This document shows, piece after piece, positions 2,306-64,000 of a DNA stretch of 64,000 nucleotides; the first letter of the stretch is position 1, and each line of letters opens with the position of its first letter. The notes below the pieces were generated by a model. The model made no database searches and had not been told where the DNA came from. It saw only the letters and a list, made by a program, of their open reading frames with translations. The position numbers were made by a program, and so were the translations under genes. Source of the stretch: Micavibrio sp. GTDB taxonomy: Bacteria; Pseudomonadota; Alphaproteobacteria; Micavibrionales; UBA9664. Location: positions 1 to 64,000 of the forward strand of contig PAAR01000027.1 of NCBI GenBank assembly GCA_002699085.1, read 5' to 3'.

Positions 2306-4128
2306 TACACAGCCTTTGCACGCTCCGCACGTTTACGATCATTTGCATCTAAATGAACTTTACGCAAACGCAGTGAGTTTGGCGTTACCTCGACCAATTC
2401 ATCTTCATCAATCCAGCTCATCATATCTTCTAAGCTCATCTTACGTGGTGGAATAAGTGTCACAGCCTCATCCGTACCCGATGCACGCATATTTGTAAGC
2501 TTTTTGCCTTTTAGAACATTGATTTCAAGATCATTTGAACGGTTATGCTCGCCTACAATCATACCTTGATAAACTGGCGTTTGGTGACTGACAAACATCG
2601 CACCACGATCTTGTAAGTTAAAGATCGCATAAGCAGCTGCTTCACCGCTATCTGTTGAAATAAGAGCCCCGTTGCGACGACCAGTAATGTCGCCCTTATA
2701 TGGACCATAATGAGAGAAAAGACGGTTCATCACCCCTGTTCCACGTGTATCAGTCATAAATTCAGACTGGTAACCAATAAGACCTCGAGATGGTGCTTTA
2801 AAGGTTAAACGCACTTTACCAGCACCAGATGGACGCATATCGATCATTTCAGCCTTACGTGGGCCTGTCATTTTCTCCATGACTGATCCTGAATATTCAT
2901 CATCAACATCAATGATAACATCTTCATATGGCTCTTCTTTTACACCATTTTCAGTGCGCAATAGTACACGAGGGCGTGAGACTGAAAGCTCAAAACCTTC
3001 ACGGCGCATTGTTTCAATCAAAACACCTAATTGTAATTCGCCACGGCCACCCACTTCAAAGGCATCTTTACCCGCTGTTTCATTCACTGTGATCGCTACA
3101 TTCGTCTCTGCTTCGGCGTATAATCTGTCACGAATAAGTGTTGATGTTACCTTCTTACCGTCTCTACCTGCTAAAGGTGAGTTATTCACCGAAAGCGTTA
3201 CCGCCATTGTTGGTGGATCAATCGGTGTCGATTTTATAGGTGTGGTCACTTCAGGTGCACAAATTGTATCTGATACAGATGTCGTATCTTTCATCCCTGC
3301 CACAGCGATAATATCACCCGCAACAGCTTCTTCAATTGGCAATCTGTTAAGACCAGAAAAACCTAATAATTTAGTTAAACGAAATCCTTCAACCTTCTGA
3401 CCTTCAAGGTTTAATGCTTGTACGGTAGAATTAACTTGCGCCGTTCCGCTATAGACACGCCCAACCAAAATACGACCTAAATACGGGTCTTTATCCAATA
3501 ATGTCGCAAGCATCGAAAATGGCGCTTTACGGTCAACATCTGGTGCAGGCACATGCGTTAGCACTAAATCCAACAGAGGGTTAAGATTTTCACGAGGATC
3601 GGTAAGTTCTTTTGTACACCATCCATCACGCCCCGAAGCATATAAAATAGGAAAATCAAGCTGGTCATTCGTTGCGTCTAGTGAGGCAAAAAGATCAAAA
3701 ACCTCATCCACCACCTCATCAGGACGTCCATCAGGACGGTCAATTTTGTTAATCACAACAATTGGACGCATACCTAACGCCAAAGCCTTAGATAACACAA
3801 ATTTTGTTTGTGGCATCGGACCTTCAGCAGCATCTGTAAGTAAAATAACGCCATCCGCCATAGACAAGACACGCTCAACCTCACCACCGAAATCAGCGTG
3901 GCCAGGTGTATCAATGATATTAACTTTAACGCCCTTCCACTGGATAGCAGTACATTTAGCCAAAATAGTAATACCACGCTCTTTTTCAAGATCATTACTA
4001 TCCATAGCACGTTCATTAACCTGCTCATTCACACGGAATGATCCAGCTTGTTTTAAAATATTATCAATCAGTGTCGTTTTACCGTGGTCAACGTGGGCGA
4101 TAATGGCGACGTTACGTATTTCAGTCAT
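2305..4128 (-). CDS. typA: Ribosome-associated translational GTPase TypA/BipA
   Basis: The 607-residue protein has full family length. The GTPase motifs are intact: AHVDHGKTTL (G1, near residue 10), ERGITI (G2), DTPGHADFGGE (G3) and NKIDRPDG (G4). They are followed by EF-G-like domains and the TypA-specific C-terminal part ending in a basic tail. TypA binds the 70S ribosome and supports ribosome assembly and stress or cold adaptation. The AAGGAATTT sequence just upstream of ATG 4128 supports the start. A possible 37-codon leader ORF ends with a TGA overlapping this ATG, and the hexapeptide acyltransferase follows with a one-base overlap. Confidence 0.97.
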   Translation of the reverse strand: MTEIRNVAIIAHVDHGKTTLIDNILKQAGSFRVNEQVNERAMDSNDLEKERGITILAKCTAIQWKGVKVNIIDTPGHADFGGEVERVLSMADGVILLTDAAEGPMPQTKFVLSKALALGMRPIVVINKIDRPDGRPDEVVDEVFDLFASLDATNDQLDFPILYASGRDGWCTKELTDPRENLNPLLDLVLTHVPAPDVDRKAPFSMLATLLDKDPYLGRILVGRVYSGTAQVNSTVQALNLEGQKVEGFRLTKLLGFSGLNRLPIEEAVAGDIIAVAGMKDTTSVSDTICAPEVTTPIKSTPIDPPTMAVTLSVNNSPLAGRDGKKVTSTLIRDRLYAEAETNVAITVNETAGKDAFEVGGRGELQLGVLIETMRREGFELSVSRPRVLLRTENGVKEEPYEDVIIDVDDEYSGSVMEKMTGPRKAEMIDMRPSGAGKVRLTFKAPSRGLIGYQSEFMTDTRGTGVMNRLFSHYGPYKGDITGRRNGALISTDSGEAAAYAIFNLQDRGAMFVSHQTPVYQGMIVGEHNRSNDLEINVLKGKKLTNMRASGTDEAVTLIPPRKMSLEDMMSWIDEDELVEVTPNSLRLRKVHLDANDRKRAERAKAV

Positions 4129-4238
4129 GTAAATTCCTTTAAATTCTCTTGTTGCAGTGCATGCTTAACGAATTTAACAAAAATAGTCGAGTAAAATCTT
4201 GCTTCATATCTCGACAAGCCTAAGAAAAAAGCTATCAT
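4125..4238 (-). CDS. Possible 37-residue leader ORF upstream of typA
   Basis: An ATG at 4236-4238, preceded by AAGGA about ten bases upstream, opens a 37-codon frame beginning MIAFFLGLSRYEAR. Its TGA overlaps the typA ATG (ATGA arrangement). No family is recognised. The start region lies inside the left copy of an inverted repeat, so the apparent ribosome site may be only a copy of the aminopeptidase start region at 4501-4518. The coupled overlap favours a leader peptide or chance upstream ORF. Confidence is low. Confidence 0.3.
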   Translation of the reverse strand: MIAFFLGLSRYEARFYSTIFVKFVKHALQQENLKEFT

Positions 4239-4240
4239 TG

Positions 4241-4264
4241 AGAGGCTATCCTTATAATATTTAT
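4241..4264. repeat. Inverted repeat, left copy
   Basis: These 24 bases are the exact reverse complement of 4491-4514. Similarity extends outward with single-base gaps to about 4236-4275 versus 4480-4518. Both copies carry AAGGATAGCCTCT followed shortly by ATG, one reading left toward typA and one reading right into the M17 aminopeptidase. They enclose the small gene at 4298-4516. Confidence 0.9.
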
Positions 4265-4297
4265 ATAATTCTGTTCAAAAGAAAGGGCGTAAATACA

Positions 4298-4516
4298 ATG
4301 AAAACAAGTGAAAGCATAGCCAATGCTACGGTGAACTTGTTTGAAGCAGTAGGTGCGCCTTTTCTTTTGAACCCAGAATGGGCGCAGCTAAAATTTGCGC
4401 CGGACGTCGTTAAAGCCCTTAACCATAAGCCCTCCTATGCTTTACGGGCTTTGCCTAGCCGAACACAAATTTTTGACGTGCGCAGAATAAATAAATATTA
4501 TAAGGATAGCCTCTAA
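4298..4516 (+). CDS. Small hypothetical protein coupled to the M17 aminopeptidase
   Basis: The 72-residue product begins MKTSESIANATVNLFEAVG. The ATG at 4298 is chosen because GAAAGGGCG lies at a suitable distance upstream; the longer frame from 4199 lacks such support and would run through the left inverted-repeat copy. The protein is soluble, with a basic C-terminus (INKYYKDSL). I do not recognise a family. The stop codon overlaps the aminopeptidase ATG by one base (TAATG), so the two genes are co-transcribed and probably translationally coupled. The last codons are written by the right inverted-repeat copy, which is unusual. Confidence 0.65.
   Translation: MKTSESIANATVNLFEAVGAPFLLNPEWAQLKFAPDVVKALNHKPSYALRALPSRTQIFDVRRINKYYKDSL
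4491..4514. repeat. Inverted repeat, right copy
   Basis: This is the exact 24-base reverse complement of 4241-4264. It holds the end of the small ORF and the Shine-Dalgarno (AAGGA) of the following M17 aminopeptidase gene. Confidence 0.9.
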
Positions 4517-5925
4517 TGTTTCCATTTTTTACAACAAAAACACCCGATGACACCATTAGTATCTATCCTGTAAGGACGGATTCTTTCGAACGTTGGTATG
4601 AAAGTCGTTCAGCGACAACAAAAAGCCAAATCACAATCGCCCGTTTTACTGCTAAGGCTGGTGAAACCATTATCATTCGTAATGAAAAAGGTGAATTAAA
4701 ACGTGTTTATTACGGTGTTTCGAATCCTATCTCTTCTTATGATATTGCATCCCTGCCAGCTTATCTTCATAGCCGTTTAAGTGATGACGCCTTACAAAAC
4801 GTTGTTTTTGAGCTGAAAGAGGTTGGTACAGAAGAAGATACAAATCGCCTTGTATTAGGATGGGGTTTAGGTTGCTACCATTTTGATAAATACAAAACAA
4901 TCAACCGTACCAATGAATTCTGGCCTGTATTAAAATTGCCAGAAGGTAAAGAAACACATCACGTTATCAATGCTTTACAGGGTGTTTTTACCTGCCGTAA
5001 CCTTATTAATGAACCACCGAATAAATTAGGACCGCAAGAGCTTGTCAAAGCCGCACAGGATCTAGCTAAAAAATTTAAAGCTGATTGCTCGGTCATTCAA
5101 GATAAGGACTTACTCAAGAAAAACTACCCAATGGTTTTCACTGTTGGCGACTCCAGTGAACGTCGCCCTGCTCTTGTTGACATTCGCTGGGGTGATAAAA
5201 AGCATCCGATGGTCACGCTCGTTGGTAAAGGTGTTGTTTTTGACACTGGTGGTGTCAACGTCAAGCCGGGCGAGTCAATGAAAACGATGAAAAAAGATAT
5301 GGGCGGTGCCGCACATGTTCTGGGTCTTGCCCATGCCATTATGCTCAGCGAACTACCCATCCGCCTTCGTGTTCTTGTGCCTGCTGTTGAAAATGCCATT
5401 TCTGGCCGTGCGTTCAGACCAGATGATGTTTATCCAACACGTAAAGGGATCACCGTTGAGATTGAGAATACGGATGCAGAAGGTCGTTTAATTTTATCTG
5501 ATTGTCTTTATGAAGGTAGCTCAGAAAAGCCTGAGATCATCATTGATTTTGCGACACTCACAGGCCACGCCCGCATTGCAACAGGCTATGAAATACCACC
5601 ATTCTTTGCTAACAAGCATGAATTGGAAGAGAAAATCAAAAAACTCTCTTTTGCCGTGGAAGATCCTGTTTGGCCATTGCCCCTTTGGAAAGGCTACCGC
5701 AAAGAATTAAACAGCGATGTCGCTGATATCTGCCACATTGGTAAAGGTAAAGCTGGGCACATTACAGCCGCTCTTTTCTTGCAAGAATTTATTGAGCATG
5801 ATGTGCCTTGGCTCCACTTTGATGTTGCCGCTTGGTCTTATTTTGACCGTGCTGGCCATCCTAAGGGAGGTACGGATATGGGCTTACGAACAATCTTTGA
5901 ATATCTACGGAAGACCTATAAGTAA
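4516..5925 (+). CDS. M17 leucyl aminopeptidase family protein
   Basis: The 469-residue protein has an M17 catalytic half with GKGVVFDTGGVNVKPG near residue 240 (catalytic Lys and metal ligand Asp), MKKDMGGAA, and NTDAEGRLILSD near 320 (metal ligands and catalytic Arg). M17 enzymes are cytosolic hexamers with two divalent metal ions that remove N-terminal residues from peptides. The N-terminal part is divergent, so it belongs to the alphaproteobacterial PepA/PepB-like branch rather than clear PepA. It is coupled by TAATG to the small upstream gene and by a second TAATG to the NlpC/P60 gene. This context suggests degradation of cell-wall or nutrient peptides. Confidence 0.93.
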   Translation: MFPFFTTKTPDDTISIYPVRTDSFERWYESRSATTKSQITIARFTAKAGETIIIRNEKGELKRVYYGVSNPISSYDIASLPAYLHSRLSDDALQNVVFELKEVGTEEDTNRLVLGWGLGCYHFDKYKTINRTNEFWPVLKLPEGKETHHVINALQGVFTCRNLINEPPNKLGPQELVKAAQDLAKKFKADCSVIQDKDLLKKNYPMVFTVGDSSERRPALVDIRWGDKKHPMVTLVGKGVVFDTGGVNVKPGESMKTMKKDMGGAAHVLGLAHAIMLSELPIRLRVLVPAVENAISGRAFRPDDVYPTRKGITVEIENTDAEGRLILSDCLYEGSSEKPEIIIDFATLTGHARIATGYEIPPFFANKHELEEKIKKLSFAVEDPVWPLPLWKGYRKELNSDVADICHIGKGKAGHITAALFLQEFIEHDVPWLHFDVAAWSYFDRAGHPKGGTDMGLRTIFEYLRKTYK

Positions 5926-36547: not shown

Positions 36548-37577
36548 ATTGGTCCGCAGGTTTAAAACCCGTCTTGCGATTGAAGTTATGGTGCGCTGTC
36601 ACTTCACGGATCGTGCCTGATTTAGAGCGCATAATGATTGAATGCGTTGTGGCACGCCCAGCACTACGGCGGACACCTTTTAGCATAGTGCCATCTGTAA
36701 CCCCTGTGGCCGCAAACATCACATTATCGCCATAGGCCATTTCATCCATTGTGTAAATTTTAGAAAGATCAGTAATCCCCCATTTTGCTGCACGTTGACG
36801 CTCACCATCATTACGAAAGACTAAACGGCCTAACATCTGCCCACCTGTACATTGCAATGCGGCCGCCGCCAGCACACCTTCAGGTGCGCCGCCAGTCCCC
36901 CAATACAAATCAACACCCGTATCAGGATCTGTTGTCGCAATAACACCAGACACATCGCCGTCTTGAATAAGCATGATACGTGCCCCAGCTTGACGGATAT
37001 CAGCAATGAGCTCTTCATGGCGAGGACGATCCATCACACAAACTTGCAAATCTCTGATGTCACCACCTTTTGCTTTGGCTAATTCTTTCAACATAGCTTG
37101 TGGTTTAGCATCTAAATCAAGAAAATCTTTTGGCAAGCCTGGCCCTACAGCAATTTTTTGCATGTAGACATCAGGCGCATTTAAAAACCCACCCTCTTCT
37201 GTCATCGCAATAACGGCTAACGCATTCATACCACCTTTAGCCGTAATGGTTGTACCTTCTAACGGGTCAAGGGCAATATCTACCTTAGGGCCTTTGCCTT
37301 TACCGACTTCTTCACCAATATAAAGCATTGGGGCCTCATCACGTTCGCCTTCACCAATGACAACACGTCCCTGAATACCGAGGCTGTTTAACGCTGAGCG
37401 CATCGCATCAACGGCCACTTGATCCGCTGCTTTTTCATCTCCCATCCCGACAAGGCGTGAGGCCGCCAGTGCCGCCGCTTCTGTTACACGGACAGCTTCT
37501 AAGGCTAAATTTCGATCCATTGAAAAGCGCACATCGTCAGGTTGAATAAAGTTATTCTCAATCGTCGCTTTTACCAT
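36546..37577 (-). CDS. glpX: Class II fructose-1,6-bisphosphatase GlpX
   Basis: The 343-residue protein has the GlpX features VIGEGERDEAPMLYIGEEVG near residue 58 and DIALDPLEGTTITAKGG near 83 (metal and phosphate site). It hydrolyses fructose-1,6-bisphosphate in gluconeogenesis. The downstream sequence GGTGGAPEGVLAAAALQ is also typical. It lies one base after the lipoprotein gene and ends in the shared terminator with clpX. Confidence 0.96.
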   Translation of the reverse strand: MVKATIENNFIQPDDVRFSMDRNLALEAVRVTEAAALAASRLVGMGDEKAADQVAVDAMRSALNSLGIQGRVVIGEGERDEAPMLYIGEEVGKGKGPKVDIALDPLEGTTITAKGGMNALAVIAMTEEGGFLNAPDVYMQKIAVGPGLPKDFLDLDAKPQAMLKELAKAKGGDIRDLQVCVMDRPRHEELIADIRQAGARIMLIQDGDVSGVIATTDPDTGVDLYWGTGGAPEGVLAAAALQCTGGQMLGRLVFRNDGERQRAAKWGITDLSKIYTMDEMAYGDNVMFAATGVTDGTMLKGVRRSAGRATTHSIIMRSKSGTIREVTAHHNFNRKTGFKPADQ

Positions 37578-37578
37578 T

Positions 37579-38214
37579 TTAATATCCCGTCAAACGTCTA
37601 GGCGCTGATGAAGCGGTTACTGCCTCAACAGGTGATGATGAATAGGCTGTTAAAGAACGCCCTTGCCTCGCTGGTGCTTTTGGTGCTGAACGTAGAGGCT
37701 CTGCCATAACGGTACGACTTTGTGCCGTATGGCTTGTAACAGCCTTAACGGGTGCTGGATATTCCATAGAACCTTTGACCGTAGGTACGGATGTCCCATC
37801 AAGTGAATAAACAACGACATCAGGTGAATATTGCGGTGTATACAATGCCTCACCTAATTGTTGCATAGAATTTTGGTAATCTTCATCTTTGTTTTTCAGC
37901 ACCTTACTGACCGCACTACGTGGTGTGTTATCGCCACCTACTGGATAAACAGTCACATCTTTACCGTAATTCCCACGCACATAGCTTAGCGCAGATATCT
38001 GATTAGCAGGCGAATTTTCAATCCGTTGTAGCGTTGAATACGTTTCCATCAAAGGGTCTTTTAAAACAGGCATAGCTTGACGTGCTTGCGCTTGATCTAG
38101 TTGCGCCTCCAAAACAGCAACACGGCGTTCAAGAGCTGCATTACTTGCATTTTGTGTTGTCGTGCAGGCAGAAAGACTGAGCAGAATGGTTAATAAAACA
38201 GGCAGAATACGCAT
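37579..38214 (-). CDS. Predicted lipoprotein with coiled coil, unknown function
   Basis: The 211-residue protein starts MRILPVLLTILLSLSACTT with lipobox LSAC (Cys17). A short coiled coil follows (ALERRVAVLEAQLDQAQA), then a Ser/Pro/Ala-rich tail ending APRRLTGY. The start at 38214 is chosen for GAGGAAATA directly upstream. The longer frame would run into the divergent phaC. A good promoter (TTGTCA, 17 bases, TATACT) lies upstream. No family is recognised. glpX follows with no room for another promoter, so the two are co-transcribed. Confidence 0.75.
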   Translation of the reverse strand: MRILPVLLTILLSLSACTTTQNASNAALERRVAVLEAQLDQAQARQAMPVLKDPLMETYSTLQRIENSPANQISALSYVRGNYGKDVTVYPVGGDNTPRSAVSKVLKNKDEDYQNSMQQLGEALYTPQYSPDVVVYSLDGTSVPTVKGSMEYPAPVKAVTSHTAQSRTVMAEPLRSAPKAPARQGRSLTAYSSSPVEAVTASSAPRRLTGY

Positions 38215-58904: not shown

Positions 58905-58981
58905 GCGCCCGTAGCTCAGCTGGATAGAGTGTTTGACTACGAATCAAAAGGTCAGGGGTTCGAATCCCTTCGGGCGCACCA
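58905..58981 (+). tRNA. tRNA-Arg (anticodon ACG)
   Basis: The acceptor arms GCGCCCG and CGGGCGC pair over 7 bp. The D-arm (GCTCAGCTGGATAGAGT), the anticodon arm TTTGA-CTACGAA-TCAAA with anticodon ACG, and the T-arm around GGTTCGAATCC are all present. CCA is encoded at 58979-58981. A recombinase gene reads into it from the right on the other strand, so the 3' half likely serves as attachment site. Confidence 0.97.
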
Positions 58982-59969
58982 CCAAAGGTGATTTATTCAT
59001 TAAATCGTCCATAAAGCAGTAAACAAGCGCTTTAGAAGGATTTGGAAAATTTCTAGCATTTTGATCGTATACCAAGCATTCAGGAAAGACCAAACGCTGA
59101 ACAAGTTGCTTTCTTGCTAAATCACCCTCAATCCAAAGCTTAGACGGTGCCGCAAGCAACTCATGTAAGGTTTTTTGCACTATCTCAAAGCTCTCAAGAT
59201 TTGGAAAAGGTGCCTTTATCTTAGCTTCAAGCATAGATTTTTCTTTCATAAGCTCACCTAGCTGCTCTTCGAACACACTTTTGATTATACTATCTGATGC
59301 GAGCACCATTTCCTGAGCATATTTCTTTACCTTGCCTTCAATCTCTACAAGAGACCGTGACCACTCACCTTGTAACTTTAATCTTTCACCCTTCTCTTCT
59401 TCCCACACCTCTTTCAACAAAGTATTGCTAAAGTTGATTAGCTCAGGCGCAGGTGTAACAGTATTAAGAATATCAACAAACTGTTCATGTACCTCTAAAA
59501 AAGGAATATTCAAATCCTTAAATTCACACCGTCTTTTGCATGTGTAATAGCCATACTTTTGATGCTTTCCTGACGAGAAAGAAGCCGTCATTGGTTGGTT
59601 GCAGCCGACACACAAGATATGCCCTCTCAATGGAAAATGCTTTAGGTGGTCAGTATTATACTTAGGCAGTTTACGTCCTTCCAGACGAGCCTTAATTAGC
59701 TCATAGGTTTCTAAAGAGATTAACGGCTGATGCTTTCCTGCAATTCCTTTGTAATCCCACACTTTGACCTCTATGAAGCCAGCGTAATAAGCTGCATTGC
59801 CGAGTATTTGCTTTTTCGCATTATCTGACTTTAGCTTAACTATATTCCCTCGGTTGTTTTTAAGACCTTTAGACCGTATAGCACTAGCCATTTCAGTAAA
59901 ACTTCCAAAACGCCCATGCGCATAACTCCTTGTTTTTAAATGTTTTTCCGAAGGGATATTCTCCCCCAA
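58944..59969 (-). pseudogene. Large serine recombinase lacking its catalytic domain
   Basis: The 341-residue frame contains the recombinase domain (GSFTEMASAIRSKGLKNNRG to LGNAAYYAGFIEV), the zinc ribbon (HILCVGCNQPMTASFSSG, then YYTCKRRC) and a coiled coil, as in large serine integrases. The N-terminal resolvase domain with the catalytic Ser (about 150 residues) is missing; upstream there is a terminator and an unrelated gene. The only start is TTG 59969 without support. The last residues (VRPKGFEPLTF) are encoded antisense in tRNA-Arg, so the gene was joined to the tRNA by integration. It is most likely a dead remnant. Confidence 0.85.
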
Positions 59970-61751: not shown

Positions 61752-62354
61752 CTATAAATGTATTGATATCAGATGTAATACGGTGTGGGTGATCGCAAAT
61801 AGACCGAGAACTACGCTCAGAATTAAGGCGCCAGCCCATCCATTGAGCAGCCAAACAACAATCGAGACAAAAACACCATAGCCCCATTTATTGTACCCTG
61901 CCCACGCTCCACCAAAAATAAAAGCCCACCATGACCAGTAAAGAGTTTTCCCCTCATCTAGCTTAGCTTTAATTTTAAAGTACTTTATTGAATCATCACC
62001 AAAATAGGTTTGAATATCCTCTTCCGATAAGCTCTTAATCAGTTCTCTTTTTTTATTAAATATTCCCATGCTTTTCCCTTTCTCTTTTGCGGCATGTTTG
62101 CGTTTAAAAAGAGAGGTATCGGGCGTATGAAACGTGTTCTTGAAAGTTAGTTTTTTAGCTAATACCAACAAAACCACCGTAAGCGCTATCGACAATATCA
62201 AGAAGAGGTAAGTGTAAATTGAATCTTCGCCATTCCATATCACGCTAATCTCTGTGCCTGTCGTTCTGGCAGCAACAATAATGCCTATAAACAGAACCAC
62301 AGCTAGTACGAGCTTAACAATCAATTTTAAAGTAACAACAATCAAACGTTCCAA
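61752..62354 (-). CDS. DUF2628-like membrane protein
   Basis: The 200-residue protein has two N-terminal membrane helices (residues 6-30 and 44-68) and a cytoplasmic part with LSEEDIQTYFGDDSIKYFKI near residue 110. It ends with the DUF2628 pattern YWSWWAFIFGGAWAGYNKWG near 140 and further helices. DUF2628 proteins have no established role. The start is TTG 62354 with GGGGG eight bases upstream. It is directly downstream of a structured RNA candidate and its terminator. The C-terminus may be shortened by a frameshift. Confidence 0.7.
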   Translation of the reverse strand: MERLIVVTLKLIVKLVLAVVLFIGIIVAARTTGTEISVIWNGEDSIYTYLFLILSIALTVVLLVLAKKLTFKNTFHTPDTSLFKRKHAAKEKGKSMGIFNKKRELIKSLSEEDIQTYFGDDSIKYFKIKAKLDEGKTLYWSWWAFIFGGAWAGYNKWGYGVFVSIVVWLLNGWAGALILSVVLGLFAITHTVLHLISIHL

Positions 62355-62384
62355 CGTCTATACCCCCTTTTTAAACAAAGAAAA

Positions 62385-62413
62385 GTCACCAAAAGAGTTA
62401 TCTCTCTGGTGAC
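62385..62413 (-). terminator. Terminator of the structured RNA
   Basis: GTCACC and GGTGAC close a hairpin with an inner AGAG/CTCT stem. On the minus strand TTTTCTTTG follows. It sits between the RNA candidate and the DUF2628-like gene. Confidence 0.75.
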
Positions 62414-62594
62414 TGGGGATTTACAACTGAAACCATAGGATCAGCCGACGGCTTTTAAGCCGAAGCTCTGGACATGACCGCCGTCCCCAGCCATAAGACT
62501 GAGAACGACATTTTCGATGCGATTACATGTAGTATGAAAACACATCAATCACGGTTAATGCCAACCGCTATGGTTTGAGGTTGTAAAGCCCCAG
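62413..62594 (-). ncRNA. Candidate structured RNA, 182 bases, closed by a long stem
   Basis: Positions 62413-62438 and 62568-62594 are imperfect inverted copies that can form a stem of about 23 pairs with one mismatch and one small bulge. Inside lie further hairpins (CGGTT/AACCG and CGGCTT/AAGCCG among them). CTGGGGA at 62413-62419 can instead pair perfectly with TCCCCAG at 62484-62490, so two exclusive folds exist. No coding frame covers it. A possible promoter (TTGCTT, 17 bases, CATAGT) stands upstream on the minus strand. The family is not recognised. Confidence 0.65.
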
Positions 62595-62687
62595 ATCGAC
62601 CAACAAAGCCGACCCACACTCACTATGCCCCTTATTTTCGTAATAAGCAAAAAGAATTTCTTATTAAGAAGTTGTGTGGATTTTTAA

Positions 62688-64000
62688 TTACAGATATTTT
62701 TTAAGGATAGCGTCTTTAGCTGCGGAAATGTGCTCCAGCTTCTCCTGCAAACCCTTGATCTGCATCTCAGCTTTTTCAATATCTACTGCGATTTGTTTTT
62801 GTTCCTTATAAGGAGTCATAGGGATTTTTACCCCCTTAATTCTGTCTGAGGATGCCCGCTTTGATCTTGAGAAACCTATTCTTTCGCCTTCTTTTAAGAG
62901 CGCATAGGCTAGGTATTTTTCATGCACAATATCGGGCTTTTTCACTCTCAAGACACCGCAGTGATCGGTGGGATAAAATGGCGTGTTTTTAGGAATGGTA
63001 TTGACCATCCAGTCCCCATCAATGCCCCATACCACGGACATGGTGTCAAAATCTGTGATGAGCAAGTCGTTGATGCGCCCAAAGGGTTCAAAAACATTGG
63101 CGCTGTAAACAGGATATTTCCCATCCGGAATTATCTGGCTCTTAAGAACTCTCTGCCCAATGGACACGTGGAATAAATCATCATCACTAAGCCGTACTGA
63201 CTGATCGGCTTTGTTGTGTAAAGTGTTCAGTTTGTCCTCAATAGACGTTTTTAGGCTTTCAATCTGGTTTTTGGCTTCTCGTTCTTCTTTCTCGATTGTT
63301 TCGATTTCCTCAACGATTTTCACCTGCACTTCAACAGGAGGAAGGGGGATTTGGACATTTGATGCTTTATCAATGTTTAAATTGTCTACTGAAGTTCCAC
63401 CAGATGCAAAGCTTTTAAATTGATCTTGCGCCAAATTACTTGAAAGCACATAAAATAGAAAATCTTTTTCAATATTGTCACTAAAATTTGAAAAAACTAG
63501 CCAACCATCATGTATGCACCCCTCAATATTTAGAATGTAGGGCCGTCCGTAGCTCATTGAATTCGATACTATGAAATCCCCAGGATAAACATAGTAAGAT
63601 TTTAAAGCCCCCTCTTTTGTGATCCTATCTTTTGTCGCTTCTATATATTTTGAACCAGACTTTACATCGCCTATTTTGATCCAATTAACCCCATCTATAT
63701 CATCAGTAAGATACTGCCTGATTGGGCGAGGTGATGCGCCTCTGTTAATATTTGCTATTTTCCCCAATTTAAATAAAGGCCATTGGCTCTCAATCTTCAC
63801 TTTTTTTTTAGAGGCTAGAGAGATAGTTTTATCAAATACCCCACGGTCGAAGGTCATCATGTCAATTAGGTCGTGGCGCAAGACATTGCCTTTCAGGCTT
63901 TCGTCAATCTTGGTTTTAAAATCGTCGGTAAAGGCTTTATACAGATAGGTGCTTGCCTTTTTAAGGTTATCAAAACGGTGAGGGTCAAAAAGCTTTGTAC
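62688..64000 (-). CDS. hsdS: Type I restriction specificity protein (5' end outside window; possible M-S fusion)
   Basis: The visible 436 codons contain two target-recognition/conserved-helix units: WPLFKLGKIANINRGASPRP with IPLPPVEVQVKIVEEIETIE near the first half, and SIGQRVLKSQ with IPMTPYKEQKQIAVDIEKAE at the end. HsdS units pair with methylase HsdM to read a split DNA target. The frame is open to the edge; residues before the first unit (LFDPHRFDNLKKASTYLYKA) do not look like an HsdS start, so it may be the linker of a methylase-specificity fusion. It belongs to the tRNA-Arg island. Confidence 0.88.
   Translation of the reverse strand, partial: TKLFDPHRFDNLKKASTYLYKAFTDDFKTKIDESLKGNVLRHDLIDMMTFDRGVFDKTISLASKKKVKIESQWPLFKLGKIANINRGASPRPIRQYLTDDIDGVNWIKIGDVKSGSKYIEATKDRITKEGALKSYYVYPGDFIVSNSMSYGRPYILNIEGCIHDGWLVFSNFSDNIEKDFLFYVLSSNLAQDQFKSFASGGTSVDNLNIDKASNVQIPLPPVEVQVKIVEEIETIEKEEREAKNQIESLKTSIEDKLNTLHNKADQSVRLSDDDLFHVSIGQRVLKSQIIPDGKYPVYSANVFEPFGRINDLLITDFDTMSVVWGIDGDWMVNTIPKNTPFYPTDHCGVLRVKKPDIVHEKYLAYALLKEGERIGFSRSKRASSDRIKGVKIPMTPYKEQKQIAVDIEKAEMQIKGLQEKLEHISAAKDAILKKYL

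Follow-up and report, generated by a model that had tools for sequence, protein, structure and literature searches.

What occupies the gene-free stretch between hsdS, whose last codon lies at 62688, and the downstream gene for a predicted membrane protein in this Micavibrio contig? We analyzed a window of 64,000 nucleotides, meaning the whole stretch of DNA, and found a structured RNA on the minus strand at 62592–62381. The minus-strand fold of 62605–62375 had a minimum free energy of −93.9 kcal/mol (z = −7.3), which none of 200 shuffles equaled, and the plus-strand fold was weaker (z = −4.6). An earlier note on this DNA had described two inverted copies (62413–62438 and 62568–62594), and both are present. 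The long stem between them exists as well, with 21 pairs in blocks of 4, 8 and 9 rather than the approximately 23 proposed. The alternative pairing of CTGGGGA (62413–62419) with TCCCCAG (62484–62490) was confirmed: it is the helix that we call b1/c2, conserved across 85 relatives. The proposed terminator with a T-run (62415–62381, −16.7 kcal/mol) and the downstream gene with its own ribosome site (GGGGG, TTG start at 62354) were likewise found where expected, but the DUF2628-like label given to that gene was unsupported: the 200-aa protein belongs to no Pfam or NCBIfam family, the best Pfam match being Holin_SPP1 below the cut-off (E = 0.086). A strict program scan flagged neither the terminator nor the weak putative promoter, of which TTGCTT and GGCATA are retained in the second RNA copy of this genome; we infer the promoter from its letters. 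The parts are as follows, in the direction of transcription.

62622–62650, minus strand: putative promoter (TTGCTT, 17 nt, CATAGT), by sequence reading, weak relative to the consensus.
62577–62592, minus strand: hairpin H1, GGGG-CTTTACAA-CCTC; its loop, the predicted target 1, pairs with 62427–62420 (pseudoknot PK1) and covaries.
62568–62576, minus strand: 5' strand of P2, AAACCATAG, the predicted target 2, complementary to loop L7 at 62438–62430 (covarying helices 3–5).
62552–62567, minus strand: hairpin P3, CGGTT-GGCATT-AACCG; its loop pairs with 62512–62507 (pseudoknot PK2).
62497–62503, minus strand: segment a (CTCAGTC), which pairs with b1 in the first fold.
62484–62492, minus strand: b1 (GGCTGGGGA), with a or c2 as its partner, both scoring above permuted partners.
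62446–62483, minus strand: the P5/P6 arm with near-invariant unpaired AUGUCCA and UAAAAG, from covariation and the invariant loop letters.
62425–62445, minus strand: hairpin P7, whose loop L7 contains the 3' strand of P2; the stem is present in all copies checked.
62420–62427, minus strand: J7, complementary to the H1 loop (PK1).
62411–62419, minus strand: c2 (TCCCCAGTC), which pairs with b1 and whose last bases form the terminator foot, from the permuted-partner test and fold energies.
62381–62415, minus strand: intrinsic terminator stem-loop and T-tract, from fold energy and covariation.
62384–62492, minus strand: antisense domain, akin to sRNA-Xcc1 and C4 by homology with the Rfam matches of relatives.
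61752–62354, minus strand: downstream gene for the 200-aa predicted membrane protein (TTG start at 62354, GGGGG ribosome site at 62363–62367).

We investigated whether the RNA recurs elsewhere. A scan of the window region against Rfam 15 at E up to 10 gave no match save one chance match, and a DNA search with the window copy in phage, plasmid and E. coli records gave none. Nevertheless, the same genome carries a second copy with 83% identity, and BLASTN matched 33 of 193 genomes of relatives. The covariance model R1, built from 26 copies, matched 114 of those 193 genomes; in samples from the whole class and the whole phylum it matched 42 of 289 and 38 of 299 genomes, respectively, and in the window it gave a single match (E = 6e-41). 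Several copies per genome were frequent, with up to nine (G008 and G015), and named carriers include Micavibrio, Agrobacterium vitis, Mesorhizobium, Phyllobacterium, Sphingomonas and Rhizobium. Among open-access papers, the relevant passages found in two surveys of structured bacterial RNAs (PMC8632094, PMC11109978) do not mention the motif. The sole phage record with the RNA is MT836939.1 (L200), which may be bacterial DNA, because the ORF of about 600 codons that follows the RNA resembles a PAS-domain sensory protein. At L147:5340–5400, some 60 nt upstream of a copy from A. vitis, the sequence has matches at numerous sites on plasmids of Sinorhizobium, Shinella and Rhizobium and is a dispersed repeat adjoining the module.

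Covariation was counted on 87 distinct rows of an alignment fitted to R1; H1, PK2 and b1/c2 are absent from the model. Standard pairs filled 91.4% of cells, compared with 70.7% after shuffling and 40–50% after sliding, and both sides had changed in 47 of 48 pairs. H1 was 97% paired over the 87 rows although outside the model. PK1 was 92% paired with both-side changes in 7 of 7 pairs, and its three central positions used all four Watson–Crick pairs and were paired in 84 of 85 rows. The two other elements outside the model were PK2 (85% paired; both-side changes in 6 of 6 pairs) and b1/c2 (94% paired at the columns counted). P5 and P6 were 99% and 100% paired with many pair types, the P7 stem had 4–10 pairs, and the terminator stem was 96% paired with double changes in 7 of 7 pairs. 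Complementarity of the 5' domain to L7/J7 exceeded that of shuffles in 63 of 85 copies. The letters AUGUCCA and UAAA(A)G are near-invariant although they are unpaired and lie between helices. The earlier note had staked its reading on compensatory changes in homologous regions, and the RNA passed this comparison.

The permuted-partner tests show two mutually exclusive predicted folds, both conserved. Among 85 relatives, b1/c2 had a mean of 9.6 bp and a score of 24.9 (permuted partners: 17.4 ± 0.4), and a/b1 had a mean of 8.1 bp and a score of 18.0 (permuted partners: 14.6 ± 0.3); the pairing of the 5' GGGG with c2 did not score clearly above permuted partners. Kinship among the sequences inflates comparisons of this sort, but the diversity of pair types does not rest on kinship alone. 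The choice between the two folds would bear on the terminator, which is predicted at −16.7 kcal/mol with its GUC/GAC foot and at −7.3 kcal/mol without it; c2 overlaps the foot, and about 9 kcal/mol would be lost when c2 is taken. Judged from sequence, the RNA shows one mark of a riboswitch, a leader whose exclusive folds would control a terminator or a start site. A leader peptide starting from AUGUCC was considered and rejected: neither its frame nor its stop is conserved, and the AUG is missing from some copies.

What kind of RNA is this? When a phylum-level copy was scanned permissively, it matched sRNA-Xcc1 (RF02221; E = 0.0007), with the closing stem of that model corresponding to b1/c2. 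The sRNA-Xcc1 model matched 16 of 20 family copies on the same core at 21–38 bits, below the curated cut-off of 53 bits, and gave no match to the window copy at E up to 10; it also matched many R1 places in relatives and gave no match in 14 control genomes. Some R1 places elsewhere in the phylum exceeded the sRNA-Xcc1 cut-off (e.g., G457:C29 and G525:C269), which links the two sets. sRNA-Xcc1 was isolated in Xanthomonas as a small RNA, 88 nt long by RACE (PMC2996969), and precedes symE in Xanthomonas integron cassettes (PMC12444791). The consensus features of RF02221, found in Xanthomonas and relatives, are all present here: the closing stem (b1/c2), the inner arm (P5) and the second hairpin (P7). 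The two RNAs also share an upstream complement ending AACC/GGUU, several copies per genome and a place before a gene. Among sRNA-Xcc1 loci above the cut-off there is a tendency to carry the first complement at about −95, with this ending (6 of 14 individually at p ≤ 0.05). In contrast, the Rfam model has no long 5' domain, PK2 or segment a, and the present family differs in its sub-cut-off score, its alphaproteobacterial spread and its genes.

The model of C4, an RNA of phages P1 and P7 (RF01695, in clan CL00128 with isrK) that acts on the icd-ant operon of P1 (PMC8198154), matched two members on the same core (E = 0.008 and 0.018), the best at 26.5 bits in a relative against a curated cut-off of 45 bits, with none for the window copy. 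Like C4, the present RNA is the leader of the operon that it would control, and its upstream targets are complementary to two single-stranded parts (PK1 and P2 covary). Upstream of genuine C4 loci over the cut-off stands a GGG-loop-CCC hairpin whose loop is complementary to the strand that precedes the closing stem; another upstream segment is complementary to the hairpin loop. This layout is that of H1/PK1 and P2/L7. Unlike C4, the present RNA scores weakly and has an intrinsic terminator where C4 has its downstream target. Such a target over the ribosome site occurs in 4 of 6 genuine C4 loci and is mostly missing here (11 of 85 copies at p ≤ 0.05; window copy, p = 0.65). The CI RNA of P4 is also an antisense RNA in a leader that acts on transcription termination, pairing with seqA upstream and seqC downstream (PMC4825925), but no downstream target was found in the present family, and the sequence tie runs only via C4-type RNAs. 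We conclude that this RNA family is a new branch within the C4/sRNA-Xcc1 kind: the target lies 5', and a terminator takes the place of a downstream target. Membership of RF02221 or RF01695 is not claimed because the curated scores were not reached and the C4 downstream target was mostly missing.

We then asked which genes lie behind the RNA. A ribosome site and start codon follow 8–55 nt downstream in 113 of 146 copies; the counts in controls were 4 (divergent genes, 5' side) and 13 (random positions on the same strand). No common family was found among 101 downstream proteins, most of which are unassigned; they include six outer-membrane beta-barrels, four TraM, four HTH regulators and three PDDEXK_4, with single matches such as DUF4268, serine recombinase, CpXC, HNH and subtilase. 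Between the two best copies in this genome, the alignment runs from the putative promoter as far as the T-tract and stops there, and unrelated genes follow; the module therefore appears to have been recruited by different genes. In A. vitis, Phyllobacterium and Mesorhizobium, many copies, several per genome, lie ahead of small single-pass proteins (loci including L122, L123, L126, L147, L149, L156 and L158) with the common start YNFWxDLFDTxQSxxDWIKAL...PP, variable ends and no Pfam family. Another copy (L157:2166–2347) directly precedes a complete large serine recombinase gene (2365–4191) with Resolvase and Recombinase domains.

A Rhizobiales copy matched 385 plasmid records, mostly conjugative plasmids of Agrobacterium and Rhizobium. 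In 4 of 5 plasmid regions inspected, a Ti plasmid included, annotated traM lies directly behind the RNA, and the fifth has an unannotated ORF in its place. Seven more TraM genes were then sampled at lower ranks of similarity, and in five of them the RNA lies 24–48 nt upstream; one of these is on the octopine Ti plasmid NC_002377, with the RNA at about 37454–37618. Reviews name a Ti-plasmid sRNA, QfsR. Ti-type copies of the present RNA have no U-tract, yet keep their position before traM, and reading by eye suggests a possible pairing between their c2 (CCCCCG) and a CGGGGG element downstream. On NC_002377 the gene immediately preceding the RNA (L194:132–464) encodes a ProQ/FinO-type RNA-binding protein (PF04352, E = 4e-20), and two other plasmids scanned have TraH_2 at that place. 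TraM is reported to be low in an hfq mutant (PMC4201532), and a review of Agrobacterium quorum sensing states that TraM regulation still wants more critical examination (PMC3907764). None of the open-access papers found mentions this leader of traM.

Sequence comparison shows the fold, its two exclusive pairings, covarying complementarity between target and antisense parts, kinship with sRNA-Xcc1 and C4, and a position just ahead of start codons; antisense-controlled read-through is the mechanism that we infer. We give a probability of about 0.6 to a module of promoter, target domain, antisense domain, terminator and gene that works as an antisense leader of the C4, P4 CI and sRNA-Xcc1 type. 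L7 and J7 are complementary to the 5' strand of P2 and the H1 loop of the same transcript, as the loops of C4 and CI are to their upstream targets. Most transcripts would end at the terminator and yield a short antisense RNA, possibly processed near b1, which would pair with the target domain of transcripts still being made, whether in cis or in trans, and so set the partner of b1. With b1 paired to a, c2 would be free, the terminator complete and the gene off; with b1 paired to c2, the terminator foot would be occupied, and read-through would turn the gene on. One accessory gene would thereby be expressed in a self-limiting, dosage-sensitive way. Copies within one genome did not show separate target specificities: identical loop cores made up 9.4% within genomes versus 6.1% in shuffles, so that such copies do not avoid shared target sequences, whereas separate antisense specificities might predict avoidance. 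Cis action is thus as likely as trans action.

The main rival is a riboswitch-like cis switch, in which a pocket of AUGUCCA and UAAAAG would bind a small molecule or second messenger and move b1 between a and c2, with L1/J7 and P2/L7 as ordinary tertiary contacts. The near-invariant unpaired letters inside covarying helices, the exclusive folds at a terminator, the output parts that differ between lineages and the many copies ahead of diverse genes, as in second-messenger riboswitches, all suit it. Unlike those riboswitches, however, the present RNA has no Rfam match and no known ligand, and its kin are antisense RNAs, with whose target layout it agrees; moreover, L1/J7 uses all four pairs freely, which is unusual for a fixed tertiary contact. 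We regard a riboswitch as unlikely. Less likely again is a trans-acting small RNA gene for which the terminator is a mere 3' end and the next gene is not under its control: the isolation of sRNA-Xcc1 as a small RNA (PMC2996969) and the terminator that the RNA owns fit this, but the start codons at 8–55 nt do not, nor do the Ti-type copies, which retain their place before traM without a U-tract.

An hsd gene flanks two of the three RNA copies in this genome, the window copy included, and the earlier note had raised a type III toxin–antitoxin system or the RNA part of a defense module tied to the restriction island. We consider this highly improbable. Some downstream genes are nuclease-like or match candidate defense models, and sRNA-Xcc1 precedes symE in cassettes (PMC12444791); on the other hand, tandem repeats and ToxN matches (E ≤ 1) were absent, and the downstream genes share no family and are unrelated from copy to copy, leaving the functional tie to the restriction system unsupported. 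The other suggestion of that note, a control RNA arranged like an attenuator or like C4, has good support from covariation, the sRNA-Xcc1 and C4 cousins and the target layout of genuine C4 loci. Least credible of all is an element that acts as DNA, for instance a site of recombination or the end of a mobile cassette, with the fold as a by-product: several copies per genome on plasmids and islands and the cassette-borne sRNA-Xcc1 (PMC12444791) recall one, whereas the fold is asymmetric between strands, orientation and spacing to start codons are fixed, and the pseudoknots covary.

Regarding the surroundings of the RNA, the third copy in this genome (L181:5576–5755, G000:C31) also adjoins a type I restriction gene, a divergent HsdM-like ORF with an HsdS-like end (3078–5246), and precedes a zinc-ribbon membrane protein. 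In the window, a tRNA gene (58905–58978) overlaps the end of an ORF (58944–59969) with weak recombinase and zinc-ribbon matches, in which the catalytic domain was not found; 58905–59969 resembles the border of an integrated island whose large serine recombinase has been truncated.

Returning to the antisense leader, RNAs of the C4/CI type have been described in phage immunity and in a small number of integron cassettes, those of sRNA-Xcc1 among them (PMC12444791). The present RNA joins sRNA-Xcc1 and C4/CI, two little-explained families, through a common target-plus-antisense layout, and extends this kind to alphaproteobacteria, where a single genome can hold as many as nine copies and where one stands before traM on Ti and rhizobial plasmids. 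We tentatively suggest, at slightly under even odds, that such leaders form a general, unrecognized control layer of alphaproteobacterial accessory genomes, a transferable module of promoter, target, antisense part and terminator that would give whichever gene follows it self-limiting, dosage-sensitive expression and would, among other effects, set the level of TraM and thus the quorum threshold of Ti conjugation. As the structured leader is conserved on the classical octopine Ti plasmid, the question of TraM regulation becomes directly testable.
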